Below are positions 3,180 to 56,000 of a stretch of 64,000 nt of DNA, piece after piece. A program made the position numbers and the translations under genes. Numbering within the stretch: the stretch's first letter is position 1; each line of letters starts with the position of its first letter. Source of the DNA: Actinernus sp. WN-2022 (Eukaryota; Cnidaria; Anthozoa; Actiniaria; Actinernidae); NCBI GenBank assembly GCA_030867875.1, contig JAOWCC010001501.1:22255036-22319035 (forward strand). The letters are read 5' to 3'. Under the pieces are notes generated by a model that was not told the DNA's origin, did not search any database, and worked only from the letters and a program-made list of their open reading frames with translations.

Positions 3180-5885
3180 GAGCTGTTGGACTAGAACCCA
3201 CTAACAGTAATGACAACGTAGTGGTGTTAAACTCAACATGATTCTGTGCTATTCTCGACGATTTCTTCCTAACCCAGTTAGTTGGTTGTGCCACCCATAG
3301 ACTTGGGAATTTATTAGACCTTGTTTTGACAAATTTCCCTGAATCTTTTACTGTGCCTGAATGCCATGAATTTGCCTTTGACTCTGACCACCACACTATA
3401 ACCTTTGGAATCAATCTTATGGGATCAAGAAAACATAAGTTGCGCCGTACTGTCTACAACTTCAAGAAGGCTAACTTTGATGATCTTAGATCTTGTTTGG
3501 CTGATACCAACCTCGCTAAGTCTCTCCTGGATAGTGATATCAATACCAACTGGATCAATTGGCTGACGACTGTCACTCGTTGTGTGGATACCATCATCCC
3601 CAAAGTTACTGTCAAAAATTCTACTTCCCCTCCTTGGATTGACTCTGAAATAATTCACCTCTCCAACAAGAAAGAAACACTCTGGCGTAGAACCAAACGC
3701 TCTAGTTCCTTATACCTTAAAGTGAAACTACGTAAGTTAACTAATAATTTAAAGAATCTTGTAGAGTCTAAATATTATCAATTCATCAACAATGCTAGCT
3801 CTGATCTTTTTAATAACCCTAAGCGGTTCTGGTCTATTTTCCAGACTAAAACTAAATCACGTTCCTTACCTAAAGTAATTAAGGGATTAGGTCAGATCGC
3901 AGCAACCTCTATCGAGAAAGCCAACCTGTTTAATAAGTATTTTTTTTCTGTTTTCAATTTAAGTAACCTCTCTCCCAGTTCGTATGATTGCTTACCTTCT
4001 GTTAATCCTCAATTGAGTTCTTTTCATTTTACAACTTCAGAGGTTAGAAAGATTTTAGAGAGCCTTGATGTTAACAAAGCCATTGGTCCTGATGGGCTCT
4101 CACCTAGAATTCTTAGGGAATGTGCTTTGGAACTCTCTCCATCCCTTTGTTCTCTATTTAATAAATCACTCTCTTTGGGAGTTGTGCCATCAGCATGGAA
4201 GGAGGCCAATGTCACTCCAGTTCACAAAAAAGATGACAAGGACTTGGTGGACAACTATCGTCCTTTCTCCCTACTATCTTGTGTCAGTAAGGTGATGGAG
4301 AGATGCTTATTAAATCGCATGCTCCCTTTCTTGGAGGATTCTTTGTATCACCTCCAACATGGCTTCCTTAAAGGGAAATCCTGCACAACACAGATGGTAG
4401 ATGTCCTAAATTATTTTTCTAAAATCCTTGATAATGCTGGTCAAGTTGATGTTCTCTACCTAGATTATTCTAAAGCCTTTGATTCTGTCCCTCACTCTCT
4501 CCTTATCCACAAACTTAAGAATTTTGGGATAAATGGCAACCTACTTAATTGGATTCATAGCTACTTGACTGACCGCCGTCAAAGAGTTGTAATCGAAGGT
4601 AGTTCATCTGACTGGTTACCAGTAGCCTCTGGCGTCCCTCAAGGCTCAATTCTAGGTCCATTTCTGTTTCTTCTTTATATTAACGACATTCCCAGCTGTC
4701 TCTCATCTAATTCCACTCTAGCTCTATTTGCAGACGACTCCAAATGTTATAGAGAAATCACCACTCCTGATGACTGTCTGGCACTCCAACAAGACATTGA
4801 TTCCCTATTGCACTGGAGTGAGACCTGGGGCATGTCTTTTAATACATCTAAATGTAAAATCCTTAGAGTGACAAGGTCTTCTAATCCATGCATCTACCCC
4901 TATAGTATGGGTTCCAGAATCATTACACCTACACAGGTCTATTGTGACCTCGGCTTTGACGTTACGTCAAACCTTACTTGGAATGCCCACATAGATAAAA
5001 TTTCCAAAAAAGCCAACCGCTCTCTGGGTTTTGTCAAACGTACCTGTGGTCATAGAACCAATAGCTCCGCTAAGCGCCTTTTGTATCTTTCCCTAGTTCA
5101 AAGCCGACTGGAAACAGGAGTTCCTGTATGGTCAGTAGCAACCAAACGTAATTTGTTGAAGCTCGAAAGAGTCCAAAGGCGAGCTACTAAATTCATAACT
5201 TGTTCCGATTCTGACTACAAATCCAGACTCAAGTCCTGTAACCTTTTACCTTTATCTTTTCGTAGAGAATTACTCGACCTTTCTTTCTTATTTAAATGTA
5301 AAATAGGTTTAATTTGCATTGATATTCTTAAGTATTTATCACCGTACATTCCAATTAGAAATACTAGAAATGCTGCCAAAGGTCCATTATTTAGCACTAA
5401 ATTTTGCAACACTGAGACCTGTGCTTATTCCTTTTTTAACCGTGTCATTCCACTCTGGAATGCTCTACCACTTGAGGCCAGATTATCTTATAAGTACAGT
5501 TCATTTAAAAATATTATTTCTCTTCATTATTTTGAACTTTTTATCAATAATTTTGACATTAACAATACATGTACCTGGGTATCCAGGTGCCGCTGCACCT
5601 CGTGCAGACTTATCAATGCCTCTCATTTGTAATTTCAATATTAATCCTGCTGTCTTTATTCATAATATTTTACAGTGTATATAGTTTTAAAACCATAGTT
5701 ATATATTTAGTAAGTATTATTTTGTTATGTTCCAATTTATATTGATTTTACCTGGAGGACTTAATCCATAGGTGTTATCCACCTGTCTAGTCCATCCTCA
5801 ACAGTATACTCATTGTTTAAATTAATGTATTATATTAATACTGTTGGAAGCTTAATAAATAAAAAAATAAAAAAAATAAAAAAAT
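3180..5885 (+). mobile_element. 5'-truncated non-LTR retrotransposon (CR1/L2/Jockey-like LINE)
   Basis: The element runs from the very end of an AP-endonuclease domain, through a complete reverse transcriptase, to an A-rich (AAATAAAA)n tail at 5852-5885. The endonuclease is lost apart from its last part, which is the usual result of incomplete target-primed reverse transcription. It lies between the two copies of the 2.3-kb direct repeat. The intact ORF suggests a fairly recent insertion. Confidence 0.9.
3242..5632 (+). CDS. LINE ORF2 fragment: end of endonuclease plus reverse transcriptase
   Basis: The frame is open from just after a stop at 3239-3241. The N-terminus carries the endonuclease tail (LLDLVLTNFPE, then the SDHH motif). 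Next come RT blocks in the expected order: GPDGLSPRIL, VTPVHKKDD with NYRPFSLLS, HGFLKGKSC, LYLDYSKAFDSVPH, the GVPQGSILGP loop, and the catalytic ALFADDSK (F-A-D-D) box near the middle. The C-terminus ends with CTWVSRCRCTSC, a Cys-rich knuckle-like end seen in cnidarian LINEs. There are no internal stops over about 796 codons. Clade assignment (CR1/L2/Jockey group) is by motif style only. The part upstream of 3242 has a stop and the 5' end is missing, so it cannot move autonomously. Confidence 0.93.
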   Translation, partial: FCAILDDFFLTQLVGCATHRLGNLLDLVLTNFPESFTVPECHEFAFDSDHHTITFGINLMGSRKHKLRRTVYNFKKANFDDLRSCLADTNLAKSLLDSDINTNWINWLTTVTRCVDTIIPKVTVKNSTSPPWIDSEIIHLSNKKETLWRRTKRSSSLYLKVKLRKLTNNLKNLVESKYYQFINNASSDLFNNPKRFWSIFQTKTKSRSLPKVIKGLGQIAATSIEKANLFNKYFFSVFNLSNLSPSSYDCLPSVNPQLSSFHFTTSEVRKILESLDVNKAIGPDGLSPRILRECALELSPSLCSLFNKSLSLGVVPSAWKEANVTPVHKKDDKDLVDNYRPFSLLSCVSKVMERCLLNRMLPFLEDSLYHLQHGFLKGKSCTTQMVDVLNYFSKILDNAGQVDVLYLDYSKAFDSVPHSLLIHKLKNFGINGNLLNWIHSYLTDRRQRVVIEGSSSDWLPVASGVPQGSILGPFLFLLYINDIPSCLSSNSTLALFADDSKCYREITTPDDCLALQQDIDSLLHWSETWGMSFNTSKCKILRVTRSSNPCIYPYSMGSRIITPTQVYCDLGFDVTSNLTWNAHIDKISKKANRSLGFVKRTCGHRTNSSAKRLLYLSLVQSRLETGVPVWSVATKRNLLKLERVQRRATKFITCSDSDYKSRLKSCNLLPLSFRRELLDLSFLFKCKIGLICIDILKYLSPYIPIRNTRNAAKGPLFSTKFCNTETCAYSFFNRVIPLWNALPLEARLSYKYSSFKNIISLHYFELFINNFDINNTCTWVSRCRCTSCRLINASHL

Positions 5886-6071: not shown

Positions 6072-7126
6072 TTACGAGGCATACTTCTTGCTGAAATAGT
6101 GCTTCCGATTCAGCTGCTTCCACGTGTTTCGAACCTTAGTATAACATTTTTCCTTCCACCCTTGACTTTCTCCAAGCTCCCATAATATGTTGGCTTCAGC
6201 ATGTTCTTGGAACACTTGATCCATCTTGGTGTTGCTTGGCCCTCGTACTTTGTCCCTGAACAGGTTCTTGAATGCTTCTCGTAAGACATTTACGTCCCGA
6301 CTTGGACCACCTGTACCGTCCGTGTTTGTGGCGATGAGGAGACACAATATTTGGTTGGCCACTCTTGGAGACGTTCTTGGCACTGACACAGGAGGCACTG
6401 CATTCCCCTTCAGCATCCTTAACATGGGAAGCTTCATCATCCGCGGCATCAGAACCCTCATCCTCTGAATCATTAGGATCTTTGTTGCTTTCGTCATCGG
6501 CGCCTTTGTTGTCACCAGCACTGCTTTCCAAAGCATGGGACTTAGACAAAGAAGGCTGTGGGAGAGTTGGCTCGCTTGCTTCAAGCTCAGTAGTGATCAT
6601 CTTTGCTGCTATTGCTGCCAGATGTGTCTTGCGCGTCATATCATACCAGCTGTCCGCAGTTCTTTTAGAATGCCTCATTAACAGGGCCAGCTTCTCTCGA
6701 TCCTCCTCGCTGTATCCCTCGGTGGCCATGTGGCTAACCCACATTTTACGGATAGCTGTGCAGCTTAAGGGCTTGTGAAGAATAATCCCAGTGCTCCGTA
6801 GGAATGTTCGCAGGATGCCTGAGATGTTGCCGGAAGCGATCTGGCGGCCTGAGTCTGACAGAAAGATTTAGTTATCCCTAGAGCTGTCTGTCTGCCGGTT
6901 ACGGATGCCGCCTATGTCGGCTTCCATGAGCTTCACATCCTCCTTAGTCAGGTAGATAGTGGCAGGTCCTGTCATGGACGTCTTGTGCTTGTACACTTTG
7001 AACTGAGAAAAAAAGAAAGAAAACACCAATATCTTCTGTCAGAAGACCAATAAAGCAACAAGAAGTAAACTATTGCATGTATCTTTACCTCAAACCTTCC
7101 AGTCTCATCCTCCCAGTGTTTGGCTC
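6072..7126 (-). pseudogene. Tyrosine-recombinase-like gene, copy 2 (broken)
   Basis: On the minus strand the small exon 7089-7126 and the large exon from 7002 downward encode the recombinase C-terminal domain: HKT...GPA, then ASGNISGILRTFLRS, then SCTAIRKMWVSHMAT (likely the box with the second Arg) and LLMRHSKRTADSWYDM, which fits the His...Tyr end of the catalytic site with Tyr as nucleophile. Downstream is an acidic, low-complexity linker and a C-terminal helical segment (VLREAFKNLFRDKV...). Two lesions are visible. The codon CAA of copy 1 is TAA here (base 6870 is A where base 30 is G). The acidic linker and the C-terminal segment lie in different frames, implying an indel near 6290-6300. 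It is thus probably a pseudogene. DIRS-like or Crypton-like origin is possible; no flanking element ends could be fixed. Confidence 0.65.
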
Positions 7127-9165
7127 CTTAGCCAAACTTAAATATATATACATCGTTGAAAAGCTCTTGAGGCAGGAAAGATATTGATGTTAAAATATTA
7201 GAAGATAATGCCGATTTCGAAACGTTTTAAGCTATTCAATTTATTGTGCTTTTATGTCTGACTAGCCTTTAAGGTCACATTGCAGAAACTCATATAAACA
7301 ACTTAGAATCCGTTTGCCACGCATTAAATAACTATCAAAACATTGTTTGATAAAAATATTCATGCATATATGTGTCACCTTTCGTAAAACAGTTAGGTTT
7401 ACCCAAAAAAATACACCGTAATTAGCATATATTACCATACATTATGAGAATTTGAGAATTCATTTCCTTAAGAAACATCCCCCTAACTTCACACTTGTAC
7501 AAAACCTAAGAAAATTACTCTTAATAGATGCCTAAACAACTTAATTAAGCTGTAAGATGCTTTTTACCGCATTAAAGGCGCTGTAATAATAAGAAAACGA
7601 AGAGTACCTAGGAACAATATATTAGTAAACTTACCACTGATGTAGAGTAGCAGGAAAGGGATTTCTATGGAGATTGATGTCGCTTTTATACCAAGTCACA
7701 GTTTTGCAAAAACAAGTAGTGCTGCTACCAAATTTTGGTATGTTGTGCAGAAGAACATAGCAAACACATCACCTGCTGCCATTTGCTGTTTACCTGTTGT
7801 CCTGTTACCATAGAAACTATTAAGATTTTTGGGTAAGGGTTGCACTTAAAATATAAACTATATGCCCTAATTTATTGAAAATTGAAATTCAACTCAAAAT
7901 TACACCACGAAGCCGCGATTTGATGAGCATCAAATAGTAAGCAAAGTTGTAGAGCTTTACCAGATCTTTCAAACCATATAAATCATTCTGGGTTGCCAAG
8001 AACTGTTGCCATGGCAACCATATAAAATGGTTTTGGGCACGAAGGAAATACACCAATCAGAACCCGGTCGTAGTATGTTATAGCCTTCATTATACCGAAC
8101 AGTCTGATGTCTTTGGTACCGTCATGTGATTCCACGTTGCTATGGCAACCTTAAATTATTATTTTTCATTAAAAAAATCATAACGGCTACAGCAACTGTG
8201 ATAAGAATTTCAAAGTTGCAAGTGTTGTAGACATTGATAAGGACTTCAAGTGTGCCAAGTTTCTTTAGTAAATCTTAAAAAGGTCAGAGGTTACAGCCAC
8301 TTTAATGTTTAAATTTCATGTACTGTTTCTATGGCAAAGCGCATGGAAGACAGTTGCAACCGTATACGAATGAAAGACCTTACCTAGTACTGCAATAGTA
8401 TGCAGTTAGTTTCTCTTCATTCCAATAAGCGGAATTTTAACAGGCTGCCAAAATTTACATTTTAGGTGGAATCGTCAGAACCACAATTTTTGTATCTCGA
8501 TAACTAAGCATCGCGCAGACTCCGTTCAAATTACCAATAGTAGTATTCCGTTCGTGTAGCAACATATTTCAGTTTCAGTTGTTTCTCTCAAATCCTTCCT
8601 GATAAGTAATGGGCTTCTGACAAATCAACTCATCAGTGTTTTTCTAGGTTCTGCGCATGCGCAACTAGACCAGCGAACAAGGTGCCAAAATAAACTTCAC
8701 ACCAAGATCAACAAATCCTGAACGTTTGATGACTTTCCGATCATGGGAACCTTGTAAGAGCTTAGTCTGAAGTTTCGACTTTTTAAGATTTGAGCAACAT
8801 GTCAAGGGTGTGATCAATAGTACACATCAACAGGACCTTAAACTTAAACCTATTTATAACCACTTAAACTTGTTTGATTGAGCTCAAATTTGGTAATATG
8901 GCTAAGTCAAGTACTGAACTCTATTGTTTTAGTTTTGGTTTTATTCTACAATGTCAGGGGGGGGGAGTTATGGGGTCCCGCAAATTACCGGAAATTGGAC
9001 TTCTGACAAGTCTCCCTCCGCACAGAAGAGAAATTTAAGGATTTATCGGACAGATCTCTGTTCTACAGTCTGTAAGCTCTTCAATGATGTATATTTTATA
9101 GTGCTAAACTGAGTTTTTACATTTTAGGGGGAATCGTCAGATCAGTCTGATTATTGTTATTGTTG
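6841..9165. repeat. Long direct repeat, copy 2
   Basis: Second copy of the 1-2323 block, offset by about 6.84 kb. It includes the interior exons of the recombinase pseudogene and then about 2 kb without recognisable genes. Differences include base 6870 (creates a stop) and 6918. The 3' limit is the TTATTG microsatellite. Confidence 0.93.
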
Positions 9166-9335
9166 TTGTTGTTGATCGTCATTGACATCGTCGTTATCAA
9201 CATCATTCGACATCGACATCATCATTCGACATCATCATTAGACATCATCGAAATCATCATTGACATCATTATTCGACATCATCATCATCATTCGGCATCA
9301 TCATTTGACATCATCATCATTAGACTGCAAATTGA
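9154..9335. repeat. GTT/ATC trinucleotide microsatellite
   Basis: GTTGTT units pass into a long run of CATCATTCGACATCATC-like units. It lies just upstream of the first NDC80 exon in the window and fills an intron. Confidence 0.9.
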
Positions 9336-18400: not shown

Positions 18401-21400
18401 CTAGAGATTTCGTCCTGATTTACATAATTTTTTGCTTCGATTTTCTCTGCCAAAGTAAGTCTTATCGCCAAAATAACTGAAAACATGACTCTCTACATCT
18501 AGACGTTTGATAAGTGGGATACAAAATTTGTGTCTGTGCTTTATGGGAATTGCAAACTCTTGCTTTCAGCTCAAGTTTGTAAATCCCATAAAGCACAACC
18601 ACTCAATTTGTATCTATTACTTCTAAAACTCATGAGGAAAAAAACAAAAGAAATTGTATTGAGTGTAACTTATAAATGTGATCTATAGAACTGGTCTCAT
18701 TTACATAAACTTTAACTTTGATTTCCTTGGCCAAAATAAGTCATATCACCAAAATAACTGAACAACATGACGTAATTTGTAAAATTGGAGTCTGTGTTGT
18801 ATCGGAGATATAGATCCTTTCAGAAGCGGCTCAATCGGGTCTATATCTACTGATACAACGCAGCCTCTCATTTTATAAAATAGTACATATTATTTCATTC
18901 TTATCATGCATACACACACTGTCTGGTGTCTCACGTTAGGTTACTGACATGGTGAATGAGAGACGGGAGGAAGCAGCTGCACTTGAAGCCAAGCTTACAG
19001 CATTTGAAAAAGAGTTTGAATGGAAAAAGGAGGTATATTATACTAACCCTAGACATAATAACTTATACTATTGTCAGCTACAATGCAATGTTCTTGCTTT
19101 TAGTTATTCACTCTACGTACGTACAATCCGCGTATGGAACACATTACCTGAGCATGTGATCAATGCTCCATCATTACCACTATTTAATATTGCTATTAGA
19201 CCTGCGATCAAGACAATGAAGATGCCTCCATATCTTAGGCACTTATAAGCTGACTATATAATATACTTCAGCAATTATTATTTATTTGCGTGTTTATTTA
19301 TCACCTCCGTTATTGCACCTGCACATTATTGTTGTCATTAGTTTTATCCTTTTATACACCTTCCAGTATTAGTGTAAACTAAATAGGAATTAAATATCTA
19401 AGATCTAAGATCACTGTTTGATGTCATTTAAACAGGGCATTTCAAAAAAGGTTTTAAACATGCAACAGGGTAAAGTGAATTGTTGTGATAATATTGTTGG
19501 AGAGGTGTGTTTTAAACAAAGCATATAACTTTACAGATTGAATATAAATATAAATCAGAGTAAGTAAACCCTCAGGCAGATTGGTAGGCTATTTCTTTCA
19601 CATTCATTTTGCCATCGGCCTTCGGCAATTTGCTGAATTATCTTCCAAATAACAGAAGACATAGTAGTCACTTAGGCCAAATTGTCCGAAAGAAATGTTG
19701 GTACATTCAATAAAATAATATTTTATTTGCTTACAATTTGTATTTGTTCAAGAAATAAACAAAAATTGGCCGGTCAATTTTGCATCCAGCTTGCCATGTG
19801 TGCTGGGCCATCCTGAGCCTCTAAATGTCCTGAACCAAACACCTCGTAGGACAATAATTTATGTCCCCAAGCAATATTTTTTTTAGCAGAAACACTGATC
19901 CATGGCAATTCCTACACTTGGCCATGCTGGCCCTTTTGAACCCTTATTTGAAGGTGAATAATTTATTACTTCTAATCATCAGGTTTAACATTTAATAGAA
20001 GTTAAAATTATTGATTATGTGAGCTAGGAGGAAAGAATTTTATTTCTTACATAAATCAAATAAGTACTTTTTAACAACTAAAACTGTGACAAAAAATGAA
20101 TCAATCACTGTTTCTGGGAAACCCCCACACTTCACCCTAACCTTTAATGGTTAATCATTTAAGGGAGGGGTGGGTGGGTGGGTAGTTTCCCATAAACCAG
20201 GATTGAGCCCTCAATCACTGTTTCTGGGAAACCCCCACACTTCACCCTAACCTTTAATGGTTAATCATTCAAGGGAGGGGTGGGTGGGTAGTTTCCCATA
20301 AACCAGGATTGAGCCCTCAATCACTGTTTCTGGGAAACCCCCACACTTCACCCTAACCTTTAATGGTTAATAATTTAAGGGAGGGGTGGGTGGGTAGTTT
20401 CCCATAAACCAGGATTGAGCCCTCAATCACTGTTTCTGGGAAACCCCCACACTTCACCCTAACCTTTAATGGTTAATCATTCAAGGGAGGGGTGGGTGGG
20501 TAGTTTCCCATAAACCAGGATTGAGCCCTCAATCACTGTTTCTGGGAAACCCCCACACTTCACCCTAACCTTTAATGGTTAATAATTTAAGGGAGGGGTG
20601 GGTGGGTAGTTTCCCATAAACCAGGATTGAGCCCTCAATCACTGTTTCTGGGAAACCCCACACTTCACCCTAACCTTTAATGGTTAATCATTCAAGGGAG
20701 GGGTGGGTGGGTAGTTTCCCATAAACCAGGATTGAGCCCTCAATCACTGTTTCTGGGAAACCCCCACACTTCACCCTAACCTTTAATGGTTAATAATTTA
20801 AGGGAGGGGTGGGTGGGTAGTTTCCCATAAACCAGGATTGAGCCCTCAATCACTGTTTCTGGGAAACCCCCACACTTCACCCTAACCTTTAATGGTTAAT
20901 CATTTAAGGGAGGGGTGGGTGGGTAGTTTCCCATAAACCAGGATTGAGCCCTAAATCACTGTTTCTGGGAAACCCCCACACTTCACCCTAACCTTTAATG
21001 GTTAATAATTTAAGGGAGGGGTGGGTGGGTAGTTTCCCATAAACCAGGATTGAGCCCTCAATCACTGTTTCTGGGAAACCCCCACACTTCACCCTAACCT
21101 TTAATGGTTAATCATTCAAGGGAGGGGTGGGTGGGTAGTTTCCCATAAACCAGGATTGAGCCCTCAATCACTGTTTCTGGGAAACCCCCACACTTCACCC
21201 TAAACTTTAATGGTTAATAATTTAAGGGAGGGGTGGGTGGGTAGTTTCCCATAAACCAGGATTGAGCCCTCAATCACTGTTTCTGGGAAACCCCCACACT
21301 TCACCCTAACCTTTAATGGTTAATCATTTAAGGGAGGGGTGGGTGGGTAGTTTCCCATAAACCAGGATTGAGCCCTCAATCACTGTTTCTGGAAACCCCC

Positions 21401-24400
21401 ACACTTCACCCTAACCTTTAATGGTTAATCATTCAAGGGAGGGGTGGGTGGGTAGTTTCCCATAAACCAGGATTGAGCCCTCAATCACTGTTTCTGGGAA
21501 ACCCCCACACTTCACCCTAACCTTTAATGGTTAATCATTCAAGGGAGGGGTGGGTGGGTAGTTTCCCATAAACCAGGATTGAGCCCTCAATCACTGTTTC
21601 TGGGAAACCCCCACACTTCACCCTAACCTTTAATGGTTAATAATTTAAGGGAGGGGTGGGTGGGTAGTTTCCCATAAACCAGGATTGAGCCCTCAATCAC
21701 TGTTTCTGGGAAACCCCCACACTTCACCCTAACCTTTAATGGTTAATCATTCAAGGGAGGGGTGGGTGGGTAGTTTCCCATAAACCAGGATTGAGCCCTC
21801 AATCACTGTTTCTGGGAAACCCCCACACTTCACCCTAACCTTTAATGGTTAATAATTTAAGGGAGGGGTGGGTGGGTAGTTTCCCATAAACCAGGATTGA
21901 GCCCTCAATCACTGTTTCTGGGAAACCCCCACACTTCACCCTAACCTTTAATGGTTAATCATTCAAGGGAGGGGTGGGTGGGTAGTTTCCCATAAACCAG
22001 GATTGAGCCCTCAATCACTGTTTCTGGGAAACCCCCACACTTCACCCTAACCTTTAATGGTTAATCATTCAAGGGAGGGGTGGGTGGGTAGTTTCCCATA
22101 AACCAGGATTGAGCCCTCAATCACTGTTTCTGGGAAACCCCCACACTTCACCCTAACCTTTAATGGTTAATCATTCAAGGGAGGGGTGGGTGGGTAGTTT
22201 CCCATAAACCAGGATTGAGCCCTCAATCACTGTTTCTGGTAAACCCCCACACTTCACCCTAACCTTTAATGGTTAATCATTCAAGGGAGGGGTGGGTGGG
22301 TAGTTTCCCATAAACCAGGATTGAGCCCTCAATCACTGTTTCTGGGAAACCCCCACACTTCACCCTAACCTTTAATGGTTAATCATTTAAGGGAGGGGTG
22401 GGTGGGTAGTTTCCCATAAACCAGGATTGAGCCCTCAATCACTGTTTCTGGTAAACCCCCACACTTCACCCTAACCTTTAATGGTTAATCATTCAAGGGA
22501 GGGGTGGGTGGGTAGTTTCCCATAAACCAGGATTGAGCCCTCAATCACTGTTTCTGGTAAACCCCCACACTTCACCCTAACCTTTAATGGTTAATCATTC
22601 AAGGGAGGGGTGGGTGGGTAGTTTCCCAGAAACTGGGATTGATCCAAAAAATTGTGTGCTAAACCAATGCTATGCTTAATGTTGTGTCAGGTTATGTCCA
22701 AGGAATACCAGAAAGTCTCAGGAGAATGTCAAAAGCAAGAGGCCAAGGTGTTGAACACGAAGCAGCAAATACAAGCAGGAGCAGAGAAAAAGGAACAGCA
22801 ACTACAAGAAACCAAAGAATGGTATGAATTATACATCATCATTATAATTTATTAATAAATCATGCATGGGAAGCTCTCTTGGTGCATGGGGTATCCATCA
22901 TTTTTTTTTTGTGTATCGTCTATTTTTCTAACAGCTATTATTTTCAAATGGCTCAGTTTTCTATTGTCCTTTCAGGGAAATATAGCACATAACTCCTAAC
23001 TAATTAAATAATATTATGCTGGGGGAATATATTTTCACCTAGGGGGAAATATATTCCTCCTGCATATTTAATTAGCTACACATGGGGTTGTATGGCATAT
23101 TCCAAGCTATTCTGTTATCTTTCCCTTCGTTTATAGTTGAGAATTTGCTAATAAAAATAAGACCAATGAAGAAATTTCCATTTTTTCCAGTGTATTTCCA
23201 GTGTACTTGTTAATGAGAAAACTGAGCCATTGTAAATAATATTAAGCATTTTGTTAGCCTGAAACGAGGGGATGTGATTAGTCCCCTCGGGTTCCAGAAC
23301 CCGTGGGGACTATATCACATAACCCCTCGTTTCAGGCCAATAACCGCTACTTATTGTATTAGTTTGTAGTGTTTCTTGTGCCGTATGTGCAGGTAACACC
23401 GCTGCCCACCATTGCCAGGGTTTGCTGTGCAATTATCTAATGGCAATTGTGTCTGATTAAAGACTTTCTATCGCTTCTGTAAATTCAGTATTTTCATCTT
23501 CAATAATTACCATAAAATCCTGCTTATGAGCCCTGAGCTTATTATACAGCTTGGTAAGGGCTTTCAAACATTTCAATTGAACTCTTAAATAATTCTTGGT
23601 CTAGCAACAGGAAAAACAAGTAGATGTTTAAAAATTGCAGAGAAACTGAACTTCATATTTCAAATTGTGGAGGGAAATCCATGTACAAATTAAATTACTT
23701 TTATGTCCAGCAAAACTTCATGGTCAACTCAAAAGAGCTACATGTTTAAAGCCATTAATTTTATTCTGCCAAACAGTTGCTAAAATAATTAAACTGGTGA
23801 TTTCTCTTTGCTGCTTATTAGGGCAGATGCGAAGCTTGCTGAAATGGATAAATCAAGAAGTGAATATGAAGACTTCCTAATGGAGGCTTGTAAACTTGTG
23901 ATGGAACACAAGACACTCATACAGGTAACATCAAATAGTGCTAGTCACACACCCAGTTATGAGGGGAATTGAAAAGTAGGGACTGCAGACTCTTTCTGAA
24001 GTTTTGTACTGACTGTGCAGGGCTCGACCGACTAACAGTTACCCTGTCACCAGTGGAAAGTAAAATCTATCAAAAGCTGAAGAATATTATTTACTCATTT
24101 TTTAAACATTTGAATTGCATCTAGTGAAAACTCACATAACTTTAAATGACGAAAATTCAACGTGGGGAACATTTAAAAATTGAAAGCTTCTTGGTTATTG
24201 TTTTGTACTCTTCTGATTGGACCAAATGTTTTCACACAAAAGGAAAGTAGTTTTAAAACACAGTTTTAGTGGATTTGATTTCAGAAGTTTATCATTTAAG
24301 CATTGATGAGTTGTCAGTATGAAAACAAAAAATTCTAGTGTAGGGAAAGGAAATTGTATCTTCAATCATAGAATCGTGCCTACCTCTTGCACAGACCATC

Positions 24401-28750: not shown

Positions 28751-31700
28751 TTATTGAAAGAAGAGGTAGGCCAAATATTCGATACAACATTTACACTCGT
28801 ACTGAAAACCCTGGTGTGACGTCTTGCTCGGGAGGGGAGAGGTATGGGAGTTTCGTACCTTTTCACTCCTGGTGTGTGATTTTGTTTCATGTCTGTCACT
28901 TCTGCCTCTCGCCTTTTTATCACTCTCCTCGCTGTCCAAACGTCGCTGCTCGTGTCTGTCCTTCTTTCTCTCCTTGTGCCTTCTCTCATCTTCACTATCA
29001 CGATCTGCTCTTTGAGATTTTCTCTTTCCATGGTCATCCCGATCATGTCGCAATTTTTCTTTGTCAGAATTGCTTTTCTTCCTCCGCCTTTCATCATCAC
29101 TGCCATCACTAGAATTACCTTCATCATAAACAAGATCATATCTGGGATATGTTAAGGCTAAAGACTGCCCACCAAATATGTAATTTATTTATAAATTAGA
29201 AATGACACTGCTTCTGAATGCTAAAAATCTTTAAAATAATTCCTTTTTTTGTATCAGCCAATGAAATTGTGCTACAACAGTAATAATCAACATCACCTTG
29301 ATAAGGAAATGTATTAAAGGAGAACTGAACCCTAAATCAATCCGACGACCGTACAAACTTGTATTCAAGAGAAATTAGTTCTGCTATTTTATTTCTTTAT
29401 GGTGCACGTCTAAAAAGAGCTGATTCTTCGCTGATAAAGCTAGTTTGTGTGGCGGCTCAATTGAGTGTTTTCCCCCGTATCGTACGTCATGCATACCAAG
29501 GAAATGCAACCACACCTTCAGCACAAAGAAAGCACAATAGTGCGCAATTATGAGTCATTAGTCCATCTATCCAAAGCCGAGAACAACATGACAAAACTAA
29601 TTTATTCCTCGTATCGTACGTCGCAGATGACAGGATTTGAAGATTTTCTTTCCTTTGACACAAAACACAGTAATATAAATGTTGGTACGACTCTTCGTGT
29701 TTAGATCTACTCATTGAGCTAAAGCTGATTTTAAGCTTCAGTTCTCCTTTAAAGAATATGGCCCACCGTCATGCTTAGCCACCTTTCGCTTTGTTTTGTT
29801 TATTACTGCTTCGATCAATGAACGTTACAAAAACATTCAAATTGCAACTATCGCACAAAACAACTGGACTATAACGATTTTCAAAAGATTGGAAGACAAC
29901 TCATACAAAACTTTTCAAATAGCGCGCAAAACATGACGGTTGGTTTATATTTTTAAGATTATTCATGTCTCTGATTGCACTCACCGATGTCAATTTTAGG
30001 GAAGCTTGAGTTAAAGTGAACAAGGGATACTGAACTAACTAATTAGAACCGCTCCACCGCATGTGTGTGTTGATCTTAGCATTTGTATAATTTAATTAAC
30101 TAAAGATGATGATAAAAACGTTTGAGTATTGAGGTTCAATGTGCAAGGAATTAACCTGTAGGTTCTCTACTTTTGCCATGGATGTTCACACACTTTTGCC
30201 TAGCCTCAATTTAGCCGTCTCCTTTGTAGTCAGGTCTCTTAGGGTCTTGATCGTTACAGAGCTGACAAAAGCACCAAACTTGGCATAGTTGTAGTTTATG
30301 GTAGTACTATCAATGTTAGAGGGGGAGCCCAACGTAAATATTCCTTTAAGGGGAATTACGGAGGATTTACTTTTTCAAATTTCACGAATTGGGTTCCCTG
30401 TGGTACTTATTTTAAATATATTTATTAAATATGTAATAACGTTTTAAATAAATTTTGAAAAAGCTATCAACCATTAGAATGCATTATCTGTCATGACTGT
30501 CGGTTACAACCCCGAATCTTAACAAAAAAGCTACTTTTCGGCATCTCTTTGAAATACTGGTGCCCAGTCCCACTCGGCCATTGGCTAAATCCAATATGGC
30601 GGCTCTCAGGAGTACCTACAAAATCTGTAAGTATTTCGCTATTAAAAGGCCATAATCTTGCTAATTTTATATTGTAATATATATAAAATTTTAAGTTGTT
30701 TTTTCTAAGTAATTAGCTAAAATTAATCGAAAATATAACCGTTTCAAATTTCAGAATCGGAAATGGAAATATCTTGGACTCGATGCATCATATGCCAAAC
30801 AACCACAACAGAAGATTTAAGATGTCCTCTTAGAGCATGTGGCCCATGTTATGACCCCGTATCAGTCTATGCCTCTTTTCTTCAGAATGTTCTCGAGTTT
30901 AGCTCACTAGGTGCCCTGCCAGTCAATGTTCCCTTCGCTCTTGATATAGACACTGATGTTTTAATTAAAAACGAGGCATCTTGGCACAAGTCTTGCTATT
31001 TGAAATTCAATTTGTCGAAGCTACAAAAAGCCAAAGAAAGAGTATCTAGGAAAAGGGAGAAGGAAGAAGGCCAACCAGAAGAGGAGGAGAACGCCCCGGC
31101 ATTAAAGAATCGACGACAATCACTAACACACAATAAGGTGGACTGCATATTGTGCGGTAAGGGGGGGAAGCTACATGAAGTCACCACTTTTTCGACTGAC
31201 CAGAATATCCGTCGCATGATTACTGAAATTAACGATGCTACGCTAATGCCAAAGATCTCAGGAGTTGATCTCATAGCTGCTGAGGCCAAATATCACCTTA
31301 AATGTTTGACTGATCTAAGAAATCGGTATAGGAGTCAACTCACTAAAAAACGACAAGAATCTTGTGAAGAAGAGGATGAGAGGATTATGGAATCTCAAAC
31401 ATTCATTGAGTTGGTTGAGTATATTGAGAACTCTGTTGAGGACAACAAGCTTCTTTTTATGCTATCTGAATTGCATTCACTTTATATAAGTCGCCTTGAA
31501 GCTTCGGGCGTTTATAAGACTGTAAATAAGACTCGACTGAAGAATTCATTGTTAGATCAGTTTCCTGATGCACAAGAGCAAAATGATGGAAAAAATCTTG
31601 TCATAATTTTCACGAAAGCATTACAGGGCATGGTTAAAGATGCAATCAAGAAAAGGGACTTCTCTGAGGACGCCACGATACTGGCCAAGGCTTCCGCAAT

Positions 31701-34700
31701 TGTAAGAAGGGACATACTTAAGAAGAAAGGCTTCAACTTTTCTGGAAGTTTTACTACAGATTGTCAAGAAACGTCCACCCCAGCAAGTCTGAAGTCGCTC
31801 ATTTCTATGATCCTGAGTGGTTTGGACATTGAGAACACTGAAGCTCAAGATTCCCAGCCATGTTTAACTGTGTGCCAGACGATAATTTTCAATGCAAAGG
31901 AACGAAGGGGTAGGTCAAAAAATGGCCAGACACGACATACCAAGTCCCGCGAACCACCACTCCCATTATACATCGGATTTAACATACACGCAACAACAAG
32001 AAGCAAGGCACTAATAATGAAGCTTTATCAGCTGGGGCTGTCAGTCTCATACCAAAGGATCATGGAGCTAGAGGAATCCCTTGCCAGCTCCATAAGCGAG
32101 CGATTTGTTGCTGATGGGTGTGTAGTACCTACTAGTTTGAGAAAGGGACTGTTCACGATAGGAGCGCTGGATAACCTTGATCATAATCCGAGCTCGACAA
32201 CCGCTGCATCATCATTTCATGGCACTGGCATCAGCCTCTTTCAGCTCCCAACGGCTGGAAATCATGGGGAACCCAGAGATCCGATCCGTTTACCATCACA
32301 AGGATCAGGACACTCACTACCAGAAGAGTACGCCGTTGTCCACCCCGTCGAGCTAAGCACCAACAGTTCTGTAACACCAGCAAGAATCACGAAAGAAACA
32401 GGGAGGTCTTTGAACATTGAGGAAGGGGAAGAAAAACGATGGATGGAGGAGACCCTTGTTAAATTGGACAAAGAACACGTTGTGGCTGGTGACAAGTTGA
32501 CGTGGGCAGCCTTTCACTCGGCAAAGCAAGTCGAAAAAGACCCGCCAGCATTAACTGCACTGTTACCCCTTTTTTACGAGAAGGCAGCAACCCCAGCCAT
32601 GATAAAGCATGGGATGGATGTAGTACGACAGGCGACAACCTTTCTGAACCCGGGCCAGGTCCCAATCATCACTGTAGACCAGCCTCTATTTGCCTTGGTG
32701 AAGATGGTGCAGTGGAAGTGGCCGACGTCACACGGAGAGCAGGCATTCGTTGCGATGATGGGTGGTCTCCACGTTGAGATGGCACTATGGAGTGTAATTG
32801 GCGATTTGCTAGATGGATCAGGATGGACCACCGCCTTGACAGAAGCTGACGTGGCCTCGTCTGGTGTGGCAGATTCATTCCTAAAGGCATCACATCTAAC
32901 AAGAACAAGGTATGATTGGATTGCTGTTGGTACAACTAGTTGTTTTCTCAGCCAGTGAGAGTTGCTTTTATTGTAATGAAACCGTAACTGTATACTTTTA
33001 AATTTCAGGCATGCTCACCAGGTTACATCTCTTGCCCTGCATATGCTAAGGAAAGAGGCATTTTCGACGTGCGCTGATGACACTACAATGGCTACATGGG
33101 AGGACCAGAGAAAAACAAGGAGCCCGACGTTTCTGTTCTGGGATCTTATCTTGAAGTACGAGACCCTGGTTCTACTTGTTGTACGTGCACATCGCCAGCG
33201 TAATTTCACCCTGTACGTGGAGGCCCTTGAAGAGCTGATACCATTATTCTTTGCACTGGATCACGTCAACTACGCCAGGTGGACACCCATCCATCTTCGA
33301 GACATGAAGTCCTTGCCTGAATCAATCTCCAAGGTATTCCAAGAGGAAGGACGATGGGTATTGTCGAAGACGGGCAATCGGTTCTCCGCGATCCCCTTTG
33401 ACCAGGCGCACGAGCAGGAGAACAAGGTTGTAAAGAGTGCAGGAGGAGCCGTTGGCCTTACGGAGAACCCTGTTGCCTTTAGGTAAACTCATAATATTTT
33501 TTTTTAAATGCATGTTACAACTGAATTCGATGCATCGCGAACTTTCATTTCCAAAATCCTGGTTTCGTTTTAGATCTTGAAAAGATGGCATAGTAAATCA
33601 ATCCAATCCATTCGAGCGACTCCTGTATTGACAGAAATCCAATTGCCTGCACTAGGGGACAGGGCAAGTAATTGATAACAGGACAAGTAATTGATTGTCC
33701 TGGACGGTTTAATCGACTACGCGCTATTATGAACACAAAAATGGTTGCGATGCATTGAATTCAACTTGCAAGGCAGATGGTTGTTCTGGAAAATTTGAAT
33801 GCGTTAGTTACAAAATATTGATTAATAGGGATAAAAGCAATAACTTAGTTTCGGCTGAGCAATTATTATTTTACATTTTCTATTTTCAGACGATGGATGC
33901 TTTCGGGCCCCGAGACAACAAGGCTTCTGCACCAGTTCGAAGGTCAATATCTAGAAGATAGCGACGAGCATAGTGGACGTCTCAACCACGAAATGGGCCT
34001 CAGAGCACAAAAGACGTTCAAGCAGCAGGTGAATAATCTAGTAGATGTCATGAGAAAGATGGGAAACCCTTTCCTCGACGACTTCCCTGAGTTGGTTACA
34101 CTGGATAGCCGTGATTGTGCATATGATGACGTAGCTAAGGCCGTGATGAACCTCGACACCCTTGGTCAGACCCAGTATAGGGAATATGTCAAGGCAGTTA
34201 TAGAGGACCGGACGACCTCCATTCACAACACCATTAAGAGGAACAAGATCCCCCTTTACAAGAAACAACCCCTGCGAGACAAATCTAAACAGACGAAGAG
34301 AATAGCTGCACTCCAAAATAATGTTGCACTATTTGCACAGCTGTACATCGCCATGCAGAGCCGTAATGCTGACCTCGAGGAGTTCTTCAGCCATGAAGTT
34401 CAACCATTCCCTCCCTCCTTATCAGAATTCGGCAATCTTCGTCTACCAAGCGCTAAATCGGACCTCCTCGAGTGCATTATTCCATCGACTCAGCCAGAGC
34501 ATCCCACGCAATTTGACTGCAGCGTTCTAGACGGAGCTGTCGTGGGCCACTGCCTTCCCGTAACTGGTTCGAGCACCTTTGATGATTACGCCCATAACGT
34601 CTTCATTCCCCACCTCAGCAGCCAGAGAAGTAGAAGAGTGGACGTTGTCTGGGACACATACATACCTAATAGTCTCAAGGAGTCCACCAGGGTGAAGAGA

Positions 34701-37700
34701 GGCAAAGGCGTTCGACGGAAAGTAGCTGGGGGTACTAAACTACCATCCAACTGGGTGTCATTCCTGCGGGATCCGTTAAACAAAAAAGAGTTGTTTCACT
34801 TCCTATCGTTGAAGGTTGCTGGACATAACTGGCCAGAGAGGAAGACAATCTACGTTACATCAGGTAAACATACAACACATATGTCAGCTACTGTATGATA
34901 CTCAAACAAAGTATGTTGTAGGCGTCATACAACAAAGGTAATTAACTAACAAATCTTTCGGCCAAGCGACACTCCTCAGTGTTCTACTAAGACATAATGA
35001 CAAGTGGTAACAATCATGCTAATGTGTATAACCTATGTTGGAATCCCACATAAAAAATGTTAACTACCGAAATATTTTTTCTCCAGGTACTTCTGTGATT
35101 TCCATTGGCTCTGCTACCGCTATGACAGATTGTACTCACGAGGAGGCGGATACGAGGGTTGTCATCCATATCCTTCACGCCATCCAAGTTGAAGAGGCGA
35201 AAACTGTCCTCGTCCGAACCGTGGATACCGATATCCTAGTCATCTTGGTGGGAAAGCTTCAGGACCTGAGAGAAGTCCAGCCGGAACTTGATCTGTGGCT
35301 TGCCTTTGGTATGGGTCGAAGCTTTCGCTTCATCAGCGTCAACTCTATTTGTGCTGTTCTTGGTAAACCACGATCTACTTCCCTGCCTGTATTCCACGCA
35401 TTAACTGGCTGTGGTACCACCTCCTGCTTCTTCGGGAAAGGAAAGAAGTCAGCCTGGCAGGCATGGGAGATCTTTCCAGAGGTCACGCCCACATTCGAAA
35501 TGCTTGCCAAGACGCCATTTATGCAGCTTACGACAGACTCGCCCCTCTTCAAACAGATCGAGAGATACACGGTAATCCTGTACGATAAGCTCAGCCCCTT
35601 ATCTGACATCAACCTGACCCGGATGGAGCTATTCTGCAAGAACAGTAGAGCAATGGACAAGCTCCCGCCTACACAGGTAAATATTACTTCTTTCTTTATC
35701 GCAATTTTTCTACGTTTCACCTAGCAGGGGCGGATATGAGGGGAAGGGCTCAGGGGGCCAGGCCACCTGGCCCTTTAACTGGCAATACTCACAATGACAA
35801 GTTTGAACTAACCCGCTGCACCTTCTTTCTATGAAACTAGGATCAACCTCTTCCTAATTAATCCTTAATAACATCGACACTGTTGTTATTTGCAGGATGC
35901 CCTTTTGCAGCATGTCCGTCGCACCGTTCTCCAGGCCGGGATCTGGACAGTCAGCGATCAGCCACAGCCACCTGTGCCATCACCAGGGCAGTTCTCGTGG
36001 TTTGAAGACGATGGCAAATGGGTTCCGAAATGGATCACCATACCCGAAGTATCCAAGGCTTGTAGTGAGCTGATAAAGTGCTCTTGTACAAGATGCAAGT
36101 GTGCCAAGGCTTCCTTGGGATGTACCCCCCTTTGCAGATGCCAATGCCTATCCTAAAAGTAACTGCATCAAGCTTACATGATAATCTGAAGAGTTTCAGC
36201 GACCGAGCATTGTTTCCGTTATGTAGCCCTAACTGAATTCTAATAATATAGCTATCTCTTGGCGTTTCTATTAGCGCTATTTGAAAGTACATTTGTTTCG
36301 CGAACATATATATCAAACAGCAGTAATTTAGGTTCAAAATGCGAGTTTGAGAAAGGGAACGTGTAATACGAATCAGCTATGGCGGTAATGTTGAAATTTG
36401 ATCATTCTTACCGAGTAGGGACTGGGAACTAGTATATATCTAAAAGCCTTATGTAATATATAAATGATGGCTTATAATGAAATATGCGAAGAAATGAGTA
36501 AGCATAATAGTTTCAGTCAATAAATGTCACTACTGCATTTCTTGTTAGCTGTTTTACTTGAAAACTGCAAACCACCACAGGTAGCCCAATTCGTAATTAA
36601 GGTAAATTTTAAACGCCCCGTTAATCCTTATGTGGTAACGATTGCGTTGGGCTCCCCCTCTAATATTAATCAGTAGGTCCTAAGGAACATCTCTGCAAAA
36701 TTTGGCGCTTTTGTCACTTCTGTAACGATCCGACCCATATTTTGCCATAAGAGACCTGACTATTGGTTCGTTCCTCTCTCGGGAGGAACGAACCAGAGGA
36801 GACGGCTGAAATTCAGGCTAACTTTTGCCGTGGGTGTTCACACAAAAGGCTTTTACCATGACAGTTTTGGGGATGAAATAAAATGAATGTTGACGTATTC
36901 TTTTGTTAGTTTGGTGTTCACTTAAAACTGGGCCAATGTACAAAGCAAGGGAATCCTTTGTTTTTGCTAGGCTAAACTCGTTCTGATATCCCACAGTGCG
37001 AGGCTAACCTAGCAAAAGCAAAGGATTGCCTCGCTTTGAATCCAAGATGGCCACCAGGTGAAAAGAGTGAATTGGGCAGTGTTCTACAGAAGTGCTAGCT
37101 GTCCGTGTTTTCGTCAACTACTCAATTCTCAAATCCCTCTTCAGTTCGTTGACCAGTGCAGTGTACTTTTACTATTTCACTGTCTACTGAAAAAATGCCT
37201 GGAGAACAGTACTTGGGTTCTCAAAATTGTTGTGTCAAATCTGTATTTCATTTTACTTTATATTCAGTCCAACTCTAATATCATCTTTCATTTCTATCAA
37301 CATGCAAGGATACTTGTCCTTTCTTGTTTTTTCTTTGATGGCATATTTGGGTTTCTCATCCTTCTTGTCGGACATTACAGGTCGTGCTCCTATGAATTCA
37401 AAACAAGTTTAAATAATAAAAAAATGTTCTAGCTATTATATAACAATCTGTTGAAGATAAGAAAAAGTCCACCTAAATTATAATGTTTGTCCATCTTTCG
37501 TTTTCCCAGTAATGTTAAAGGGAGCCTCCACTGAAAAACTGTTTTATCTCAAATGTTTGTTATTCATACCTAAATCTAATGATGTGTTTGTTTCATGTAA
37601 ATTGTACACTATAATTATTCTCCTGTTACGCAACAAAAGAGCTATTGTTTTCTGACACTCAATTCTGAATCTCTAACAAGACCTGAAACAACCATGGGGG

Positions 37701-53017: not shown

Positions 53018-56000
53018 ATGGCCGCAGGGTCGCGCGAGTTTTTCTCGCATTTTCGCCACTTTGGCTCTTCGCTGGAAAGAGATTGCAATGACTTGAAGTC
53101 TAGGCTTGACGATAACGAGAATGCTACAGAAAAAGAAGGCCGTTCTCACCTTGTTTTGCGAGGAATACTGTCTGATATCACTGAATTGAAGGTATTTTAA
53201 CAACATTATTAGTCATAGTTAGCGTAATACGTGTAGCGAAGGAAATAAGTTAAATGTCTTCGACTTCGAGCAGTCTAGCTTCTAGGGAATAGTAAAGAAT
53301 CCTTCACATTACTTTTGCTGCGACTTTTAAATTTATTTGCCTGCAAACAAGCGTAATGTGATCTGAGTGACAAAGTTATGACAAAACATTTAGGGTGAAA
53401 TGAGCACTAAAGCAACACAAGCCAAAGCGAACCTGTCCTTTGGAGAATTTCTTACTGCATGCGAGAGGCTTGCCGAACACACCAAGGATTGCACTGAGGA
53501 TTTAGAAGAACATCTTCAACAATATGGCTACAGAAAGCCAGGTAAAAAAATAATTTAATAATACTATGAAATAATATAGCAAAATATTAGTGCAATAGTG
53601 GTGATTCTTGGTTTGCATACAGTCATAAATTAGAAAAAAAGTATTTCTGGGAAACAGTTAGGGGGGACCATCAACATATTCCTAGCTAGTGCCCCACTTA
53701 ATGTCCAATAATAATGGACATTAGGGACTGTTCGTTATTTATGGCTAATGGGGGGGGGGACCATAGAAAAATTTACAACCCCCCCTCCCTCAAACTCCAA
53801 TATATGAAAAACCTACCCCCCTCTCAATAATGCCCAAGATGACTGCTGGACTAGGTCTTAGGTGGGTGTCTGGTAGCCATTGGACACCCCTTTGTTGTGG
53901 ATCCACCACTGGCTCAGGATACCAGAGGTTCTAGTCTCTAAGCTAAAGTTAAGGTGCTGCCCTCAGGTATTTAAGCTGTTAATTAGTCAATACTGAGAAC
54001 CCCAGAGAACTATTCAGTGCTGCATTGTGAAGAATCTCTAAATGAGTAAATATGGAAACTGCAAAAACTACAGTACAGTCGAACCCCTCGTAAGCGGACA
54101 CCCTTGGGACCGCCTCGAAGTGTCCGCTTACGAGGGGTGTCCGCTTACGGGGGGTTGAAAACGAAACGAAACAAGACAGAACACAATCCTCATCCAAATG
54201 AGCTAACAAGCAACTTAGAAGTTGTTGGTCATGTACCCAAACTAATGGCACGCTGGGTGACAAGATTTCTGAAACGTCAAACTAACTCGGCAACCGTAGT
54301 TGTTAAGGGGAAACGAATTAATCGAGGCACTGGTTATGGACTTGAGCTGCCCTGTCATTATCACTTCAAGGGGGACACATTTTCTTGCGACTGGCTGAAG
54401 GAGAAACTACAGCAAGGATCATTTGAAGTGGATGATGACTAAATGCCAAGGACTCTATAGTTTTATGAAAATACTTTTAAATTGTACTGAAGTTTTGTTT
54501 ACATTGATCTTCGAGCATGATCCCCTGATTAGTAATTGTGATCACGACAGGATATCACTAGATACTTGACACACGACACCGACGCACATTAGTAATTGCG
54601 ATCACGACAGGATATCACTAGATACTTGACACACGACACCGACGCACATTAGTAATTGTGATCACGACAGGATATCACTAGATACTTGACACACGACACC
54701 GATGCACATTAGTAATTGTGATCACGACAGGATATCACTAGATACTTGACACACGACACCGATGCACATTAGTAATTGTGATCACGACAGGATATCACTA
54801 GATACTTGACACACGACACCGATGCACATTAGTAATTGTGATCACGACAGGATATCACTAGATACTTGACACACGACACCGACGCACATTAGTAATAGTG
54901 ATCACGACAGGATATCACTAGATACTTGACACACGACACCGATGCACATTAGTAATTGTGATCACGACAGGATATCACTAGATACTTGACACACGACACC
55001 GATGCACATTAGTAATTGTGATCACGACAGGATTATTTATCACTAGATACTCGACACACGACACCGATGCACAGTTGTGCGATGAAAGGAGTGCTTTTGT
55101 ATCAAATAAATATCATTTCCTGAGGATTATGTTTTCAAGTGTCCACTTACGGGAGGTCTTTTTTGCCGTTGGGACCAGAGAAATGGTGTCCGCGTCCGCT
55201 TACGGGAGGTGTCCGTTTATGGGAGGTTACAAATATAGGGTTTTCTTAAGGAAACGGCCGGGACTTCAAAATGGTGTCCGCTTACAAGGGGTGTCCGCTT
55301 ACGAGGGGTGTCCGTTAGGAGGGGTTCGACTGTAGTTTCAAAAAATTGTGCAGAGGAAAAAGCTGCAAAATAATGTGCACTATAGATGGGCAAAATAAAT
55401 CCTATTCAGTAAAATGGCCCATCACGTTTCTAATGGTCTGTCCCTTGGGCCAGTACAAAGACATAATTTTGCAGTGCACTTATCCTCAATTTGACCTTAC
55501 ATCATGTAATTTATTGACAGGAGATCTCCCCCTCGTAGAGAGCATATATGAGGTGATAAGCAGCAGTAGTGATAACGATAAAAGGTACTGGTCAGCTCCT
55601 GACCTTCATGGCATATAAACCTTATTCACACAGCACCTTTGTTTCCTCATTGTGATATACTGCTCAGTGCGATGTTTATATACATGGGAAATCTATTGTT
55701 TCTATCAATGGCTGCCACACACATGACAAGGGCGAATTGATTCCCAGAGAGAGTAAAGGATATGGAGAGGACATTCCAGTTAGAGAACTGTGCTTACACT
55801 GTCTTGAAAAGCCCTTTTATACATATTAATGGTACTGTTCATCTTGAAAAGTCCTTGTAATGAATAAAAAAATCCTTGAAAAGGACTTGAATTTCTTTAG
55901 TATATATGCTGTAAGCATGTTGTTTTTTTAAGAAATAGAATTACCAAAAAATATCTGTAAGACAGTGAAATAATTCAGTTTGATTGTTTCACAGTAGTTG

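Follow-up and report, generated by a model that had tools for sequence, protein, structure and literature searches.

An almost complete DNA transposon from Actinernus encoding a predicted P-element-type DDE transposase joined to a FEN1/XPG-type nuclease

The window analysed here is a stretch of 64,000 nucleotides from Actinernus sp. WN-2022 (Cnidaria, Actiniaria; assembly GCA_030867875.1, contig JAOWCC010001501.1, positions 22,255,036 to 22,319,035 of the forward strand), which contains at positions 30201..36820 a putative DNA transposon of 6,620 bp with one spliced gene. A preliminary description made from the letters alone had placed a transposon there, and its coordinates are right to the base, terminal repeats and the 9-mer ACTTTTGCC meeting both ends. 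The features of the element are as follows; residue conservation was counted among 171 relatives, and the denominators are those relatives that cover each site.

30169..30191, no strand: host repeat unit of 23 bp on the left side of the insertion, matching 36821-36843 at 21 of 23 positions
30192..30200, no strand: left 9-bp target-site duplication ACTTTTGCC (sequence and end alignment)
30201..30413, plus strand: left terminal inverted repeat, outer end TAGCCTCAATTTAGCC (blastn and gapped alignment)
30763..32909, plus strand: exon 1, covering residues 1-715 plus two bases of codon 716, colinear with uninterrupted relatives
30784..30996, plus strand: CxxC...HxxC module 1, with C8 (131/132), C11 (133/134), H75 (141/141) and C78 (142/142)
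31144..31305, plus strand: CxxC...HxxC module 2, with C128 (143/143), C131 (143/144), H178 (152/152) and C181 (152/153)
32170..32172, plus strand: codon of D470, predicted first DDE residue, Asp in 170/170, in the first strand of the core model
32677..32679, plus strand: codon of D639, predicted second DDE residue, Asp in 168/168, immediately following strand 4 of the core model
33009..33482, plus strand: exon 2 (gene model)
33412..33414, plus strand: codon of E851, predicted third DDE residue, Glu in 164/165, in the HEQxN helix of the core model
33890..34863, plus strand: exon 3 (gene model)
34452..35985, plus strand: predicted FEN1/EXO1/XPG-type nuclease, ~residues 1062-1425, in parts of exons 3, 4 and 5 (model of relative P0029, range 714-1079)
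35087..35676, plus strand: exon 4, with the EEAD, DTD and GCG motifs, the last being GCD in relatives (gene model)
35413..35415, plus strand: codon of residue 1308, Gly here and Asp in 124/127, probable equivalent of FEN1 D233
35896..36156, plus strand: exon 5, including the stop codon (gene model)
36061..36147, plus strand: Cys-rich CXC-like tail, residues 1451-1479 (alignment with relatives)
36562..36820, minus strand: right terminal inverted repeat, containing an additional palindrome at ~36764-36795 (blastn and gapped alignment)
36821..36829, no strand: right 9-bp target-site duplication ACTTTTGCC (sequence and end alignment)

The inverted repeats, put at 200-250 bp in the preliminary description, are imperfect arms of ~213 bp on the left and ~259 bp on the right, which terminate exactly at 30201 and 36820. 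TAGCCTCAATTTAGCC starts at the first of these positions and its inverted counterpart finishes at the second, and the outermost tips have TAGCCT(C/G)AATTT(-)AGCCGTCTCCT in common. The inner part of the arms aligns at 70% over 192 columns (E 8e-16, blastn), and a gapped local alignment of the element ends scores 205, compared with 65.5 for the best of 200 shuffles, a score that is raised by extension of the alignment ~31 bp into the flank.

ACTTTTGCC adjoins both ends precisely where the inverted repeats stop, and the two 9-mers are identical; the chance that two random points of the window have 9 bp in common is 2.5e-5 (10/400,000). The insertion target is a 23-bp tandem repeat, and the 9-mer is therefore also present at 30169. 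Removal of the element together with one ACTTTTGCC restores two clean 23-bp units, between which a stray 9-base piece would remain if there had been no duplication. Two shorter duplications were rejected on reading the sequence: TA, with which the empty site would keep an odd partial repeat unit, and CTA, with which the inverted repeats shift one base out of step.

Five GT-AG exons, joined in phase as had been proposed, give a single open frame of 1,481 residues from the ATG at 30763 to a stop codon ending at 36156. Splice sites were sought only in short windows near the open-frame edges, each of which contains a single GT or a single AG. Nine relatives inspected at the four junctions are continuous across them, apart from minor differences in length immediately behind junction 3. 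A chance origin of the gene model is excluded because the best full-length relative among the matches listed is 56% identical and covers 99% of the query. The ligands of the two CxxC...HxxC modules already recognized in the preliminary description are near-invariant, and the Cys-rich tail resembles the CXC type, with a TCR/CXC Pfam match in only 1 of 31 relatives scanned (E 0.93). The window protein itself has no Pfam match at E<=1, and a search of the PDB by sequence returned none for P0001 (E<=1) and none for profile A1 (E<=10).

The conserved central Asp and Glu blocks, for which a DDE-like fold had been suggested, contain D470, D639 and E851, and the core model is predicted to have the P-type DDE fold. 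Its best structural match is P element transposase (6pe2, 6p5a), over most of the core length, and an all-helical insertion is predicted ahead of the Glu helix, whereas the P element has an insertion that binds GTP. Hermes, of the hAT type, likewise has an RNase-H fold with a helical insertion, but it matches the core model with a lower Z (8.3) and a root-mean-square deviation of 8.4 Å. Direct Foldseek of the isolated core gave no significant match. HzTransib and RAG reach probabilities of 0.25 and <0.1 with the long model and are absent from the matches listed for the core (best 50 of 111 and best 50 of 136), so the RAG/Transib reading was dropped. The transposase core of the window copy looks sound.

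Behind the core, the model of the relative P0029 is predicted to adopt the full-domain fold of the EXO1, FEN1 and XPG nucleases, from which it differs in its low identity (~13%) and in being fused to a transposase. Seven carboxylates are kept in the relatives, namely D1088 (147/148), D1129 (147/148), E1218 (131/133), D1220 (131/132), D1245 (128/129), D1247 (128/129) and the Asp at position 1308. By order and motif they are assigned to FEN1 D34, D86, E158, E160, D179, D181 and D233. In hhalign, residue 1308 aligns with D233 and the segment GKGKKSA with the GIGPKRA turn, but without significance (prob 0.4%). The window copy has six of the seven, with Gly1308, and such a change would suit a FEN-fold part that is a structural or DNA-binding module with no nuclease activity; the near-universal presence of the seven carboxylates in relatives makes this improbable. 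Among 124 near-invariant columns (>=97% constant in 103 full-length relatives) the window copy breaks one, residue 1308, compared with 0 to 10 broken columns per relative, so that to judge from its sequence this copy looks well kept except at one predicted metal ligand. Because one of seven metal-binding carboxylates is Gly, its nuclease is probably weakened or dead, and the Gly might conceivably be a sequencing error.

With a probability of roughly three in four, 30201..36820 is an almost complete DNA transposon of cut-and-paste type whose single gene is spliced and encodes a DDE transposase of P-element/hAT fold fused to a complete 5' nuclease of FEN1/EXO1/XPG type; two CCHC zinc modules precede them and a CXC-like tail follows. 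This reading is based on the layout, on folds predicted for a relative, on both active sites being conserved in relatives and on one insertion flanked by a 9-bp duplication. Three caveats apply: the match between the two inverted repeats is far from perfect, the right arm contains a palindrome at 36764-36795 (87.5% over 32 bp, blastn) that the left arm lacks and that could be a small foldback insertion, and the nuclease site is changed at residue 1308. The preliminary description called the element intact, but it is almost complete only, and the XPG/FEN1-like module proposed there is borne out by the fold predicted for P0029 and by the carboxylates of the relatives, though not in full by the window copy. 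The changed site, and the single copy visible in the window, would also be expected of a host gene that descends from such a transposon, is no longer mobile and has kept the repeats as remnants; this is very improbable, given that the gene is still exactly enclosed by terminal repeats and duplication, that a single near-invariant column is broken and that the two 9-mers are identical.

The AcademX transposons carry a nuclease of XPG type and combine it with a DDE transposase in one element of similar length, and the same combination is found here, by the predicted fold of a relative and by conservation. In a literature search nothing closer than PMC10045372 was found, and no paper with "Academ" and "XPG" as whole words. 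PMC10045372 gives duplications of 9-10 bp for AcademH, which carries a helicase, and of 3-4 bp for AcademX, a difference seemingly tied to helicase versus nuclease. The preliminary statement that 9 bp does not fit Academ was thus wrong as put, since the length agrees with AcademH as described there; it does misfit AcademX. No DEAD or Helicase_C family was found in Pfam scans of the query or of the 31 relatives, one of which has a lone weak Pox_D5 match (E 0.0094). The element is AcademX-like by layout and unlike AcademX by duplication length, as compared by description only and with 9 bp seen in one copy.

An ordinary AcademX element throughout, with a true duplication of 3-4 bp or another length and a 9-bp flank that is a by-product of landing in the 23-bp repeat, is an unlikely explanation, although not a far-fetched one. 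The layout ascribed to AcademX in PMC10045372 agrees with it, as do the repetitive target site and the mean length of 5,565 bp given for curated bivalve Academ elements in PMC10294476, which is close to 6,620 bp. Where the inverted repeats end symmetrically, however, a match of 9 bp is seen between the flanks and none of 3 or 4 bp. A 3-bp match arises only on shifting both ends outward by 3 bases, into the 9-mer, and there the arms stop pairing; a shorter duplication, like none at all, would also leave the odd 9-base partial unit in the empty site.

Both P elements and hAT elements such as Hermes make 8-bp duplications, compared with 9 bp in the single copy observed here. Members of the P superfamily have a THAP zinc finger, and the window protein, without any Pfam match, has two CCHC modules of other spacing; the P element is not known to have a FEN nuclease. 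It is tentatively conceivable, at odds well short of even, that the element represents a lineage separate from AcademX, in which a P-fold DDE transposase relies on a flap nuclease within the same protein to cut the second strand and generates duplications of 9 bp, with both the length and the lineage resting on one insertion. Such a lineage, if true, would break the proposed link of nuclease-type Academ with short duplications, and the presence of nuclease and 9 bp in one element directly tests the published relation. The preliminary interpretation as a whole is partly supported.

In the mechanism proposed, the zinc modules and the CXC tail would bind the terminal repeats, the DDE site would cut the 3' ends and join them across a 9-bp stagger, and the flap nuclease would make or trim the 5'-strand cuts at branched intermediates of excision or integration. 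The long single-stranded ends left by P-type enzymes could serve as FEN substrates. This division of labour between two nucleases would resemble that of TnsB and TnsA in Tn7, where TnsA handles 5'-strand cutting. The window copy would be weak or need a helper copy. Two nucleases in one transposase offer a concrete, testable model for second-strand cutting by a transposon.

The database search gave 149 proteins at E<=1e-5 from 7,987 scored candidates, and a profile built on 31 relatives gave 427 proteins among 7,993, of which the best 120 were listed in each case. Sources among the matches listed include Nematostella, Oculina, Actinostola, eel, hagfish, two carps, Haliotis, Mytilus, Amphimedon, thrips and crab. 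In a FastTree tree the window protein groups with one Nematostella protein (support 1.0), and a second Nematostella protein is distant, so there are at least two lineages within one genome. DUF6589 (PF20231), a Pfam family without stated function, is matched at E<=1 by 18 of the 31 relatives scanned (best 2e-8) but not by the window protein, a share that is inflated because all 10 tagged rows among the 120 listed were included; among the other 21 relatives the number is 8, assuming that all 10 tagged rows match. In the relative P0012 the DUF6589 match lies in the second half of the DDE core, at residues 745-892, with 27.1 bits against a curated cut-off of 27. No paper naming DUF6589 was found in the literature search. 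Many entries called "uncharacterized" or "hypothetical", in cnidarians, fish, hagfish, molluscs, sponge and arthropods among others, could be renamed transposases.

Relatives in viral contigs and in prokaryote genomes appeared as pattern matches, none of which was confirmed. One relative, P0145, is filed under a bacterial metagenome-assembled genome (Sedimenticola); a genome contig search with it found no locus, and it is probably animal host DNA in that bin. The Actinostola relative P0159 has a precomputed tag of PF13359, a DDE transposase family, beside sequence of the transposase-nuclease family described here, and could represent two transposons fused in one gene model. Against a viral library, the model m9068dc8724a0 matches by fold (E 2e-4 to 2e-3) the Allo54 proteins from two herpesviruses of fish and unnamed proteins from two herpesviruses of frogs. 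They stand alongside XRN and FEN nucleases from giant viruses, and these matches perhaps arise only via the predicted FEN part.

Elsewhere in the window, direct repeats at 1-2332 and 6841-9174, which are 99% alike (blastn), flank an open reading frame at 3242-5632 that encodes 796 residues with a reverse transcriptase match (RVT_1, E 3.9e-35). Together they are a retroelement of long terminal repeat type or of tandem Penelope type, possibly cut by the window start. Just right of the transposon, at 36941-37038, lies a separate 45-bp inverted repeat with 82% complementarity and an 8-bp spacer. Two tandem arrays are also present, one of 106 bp in 24 copies at 20101-22642 (98% matches) and one of 60 bp in 9 copies at 54528-55073 (97% matches).
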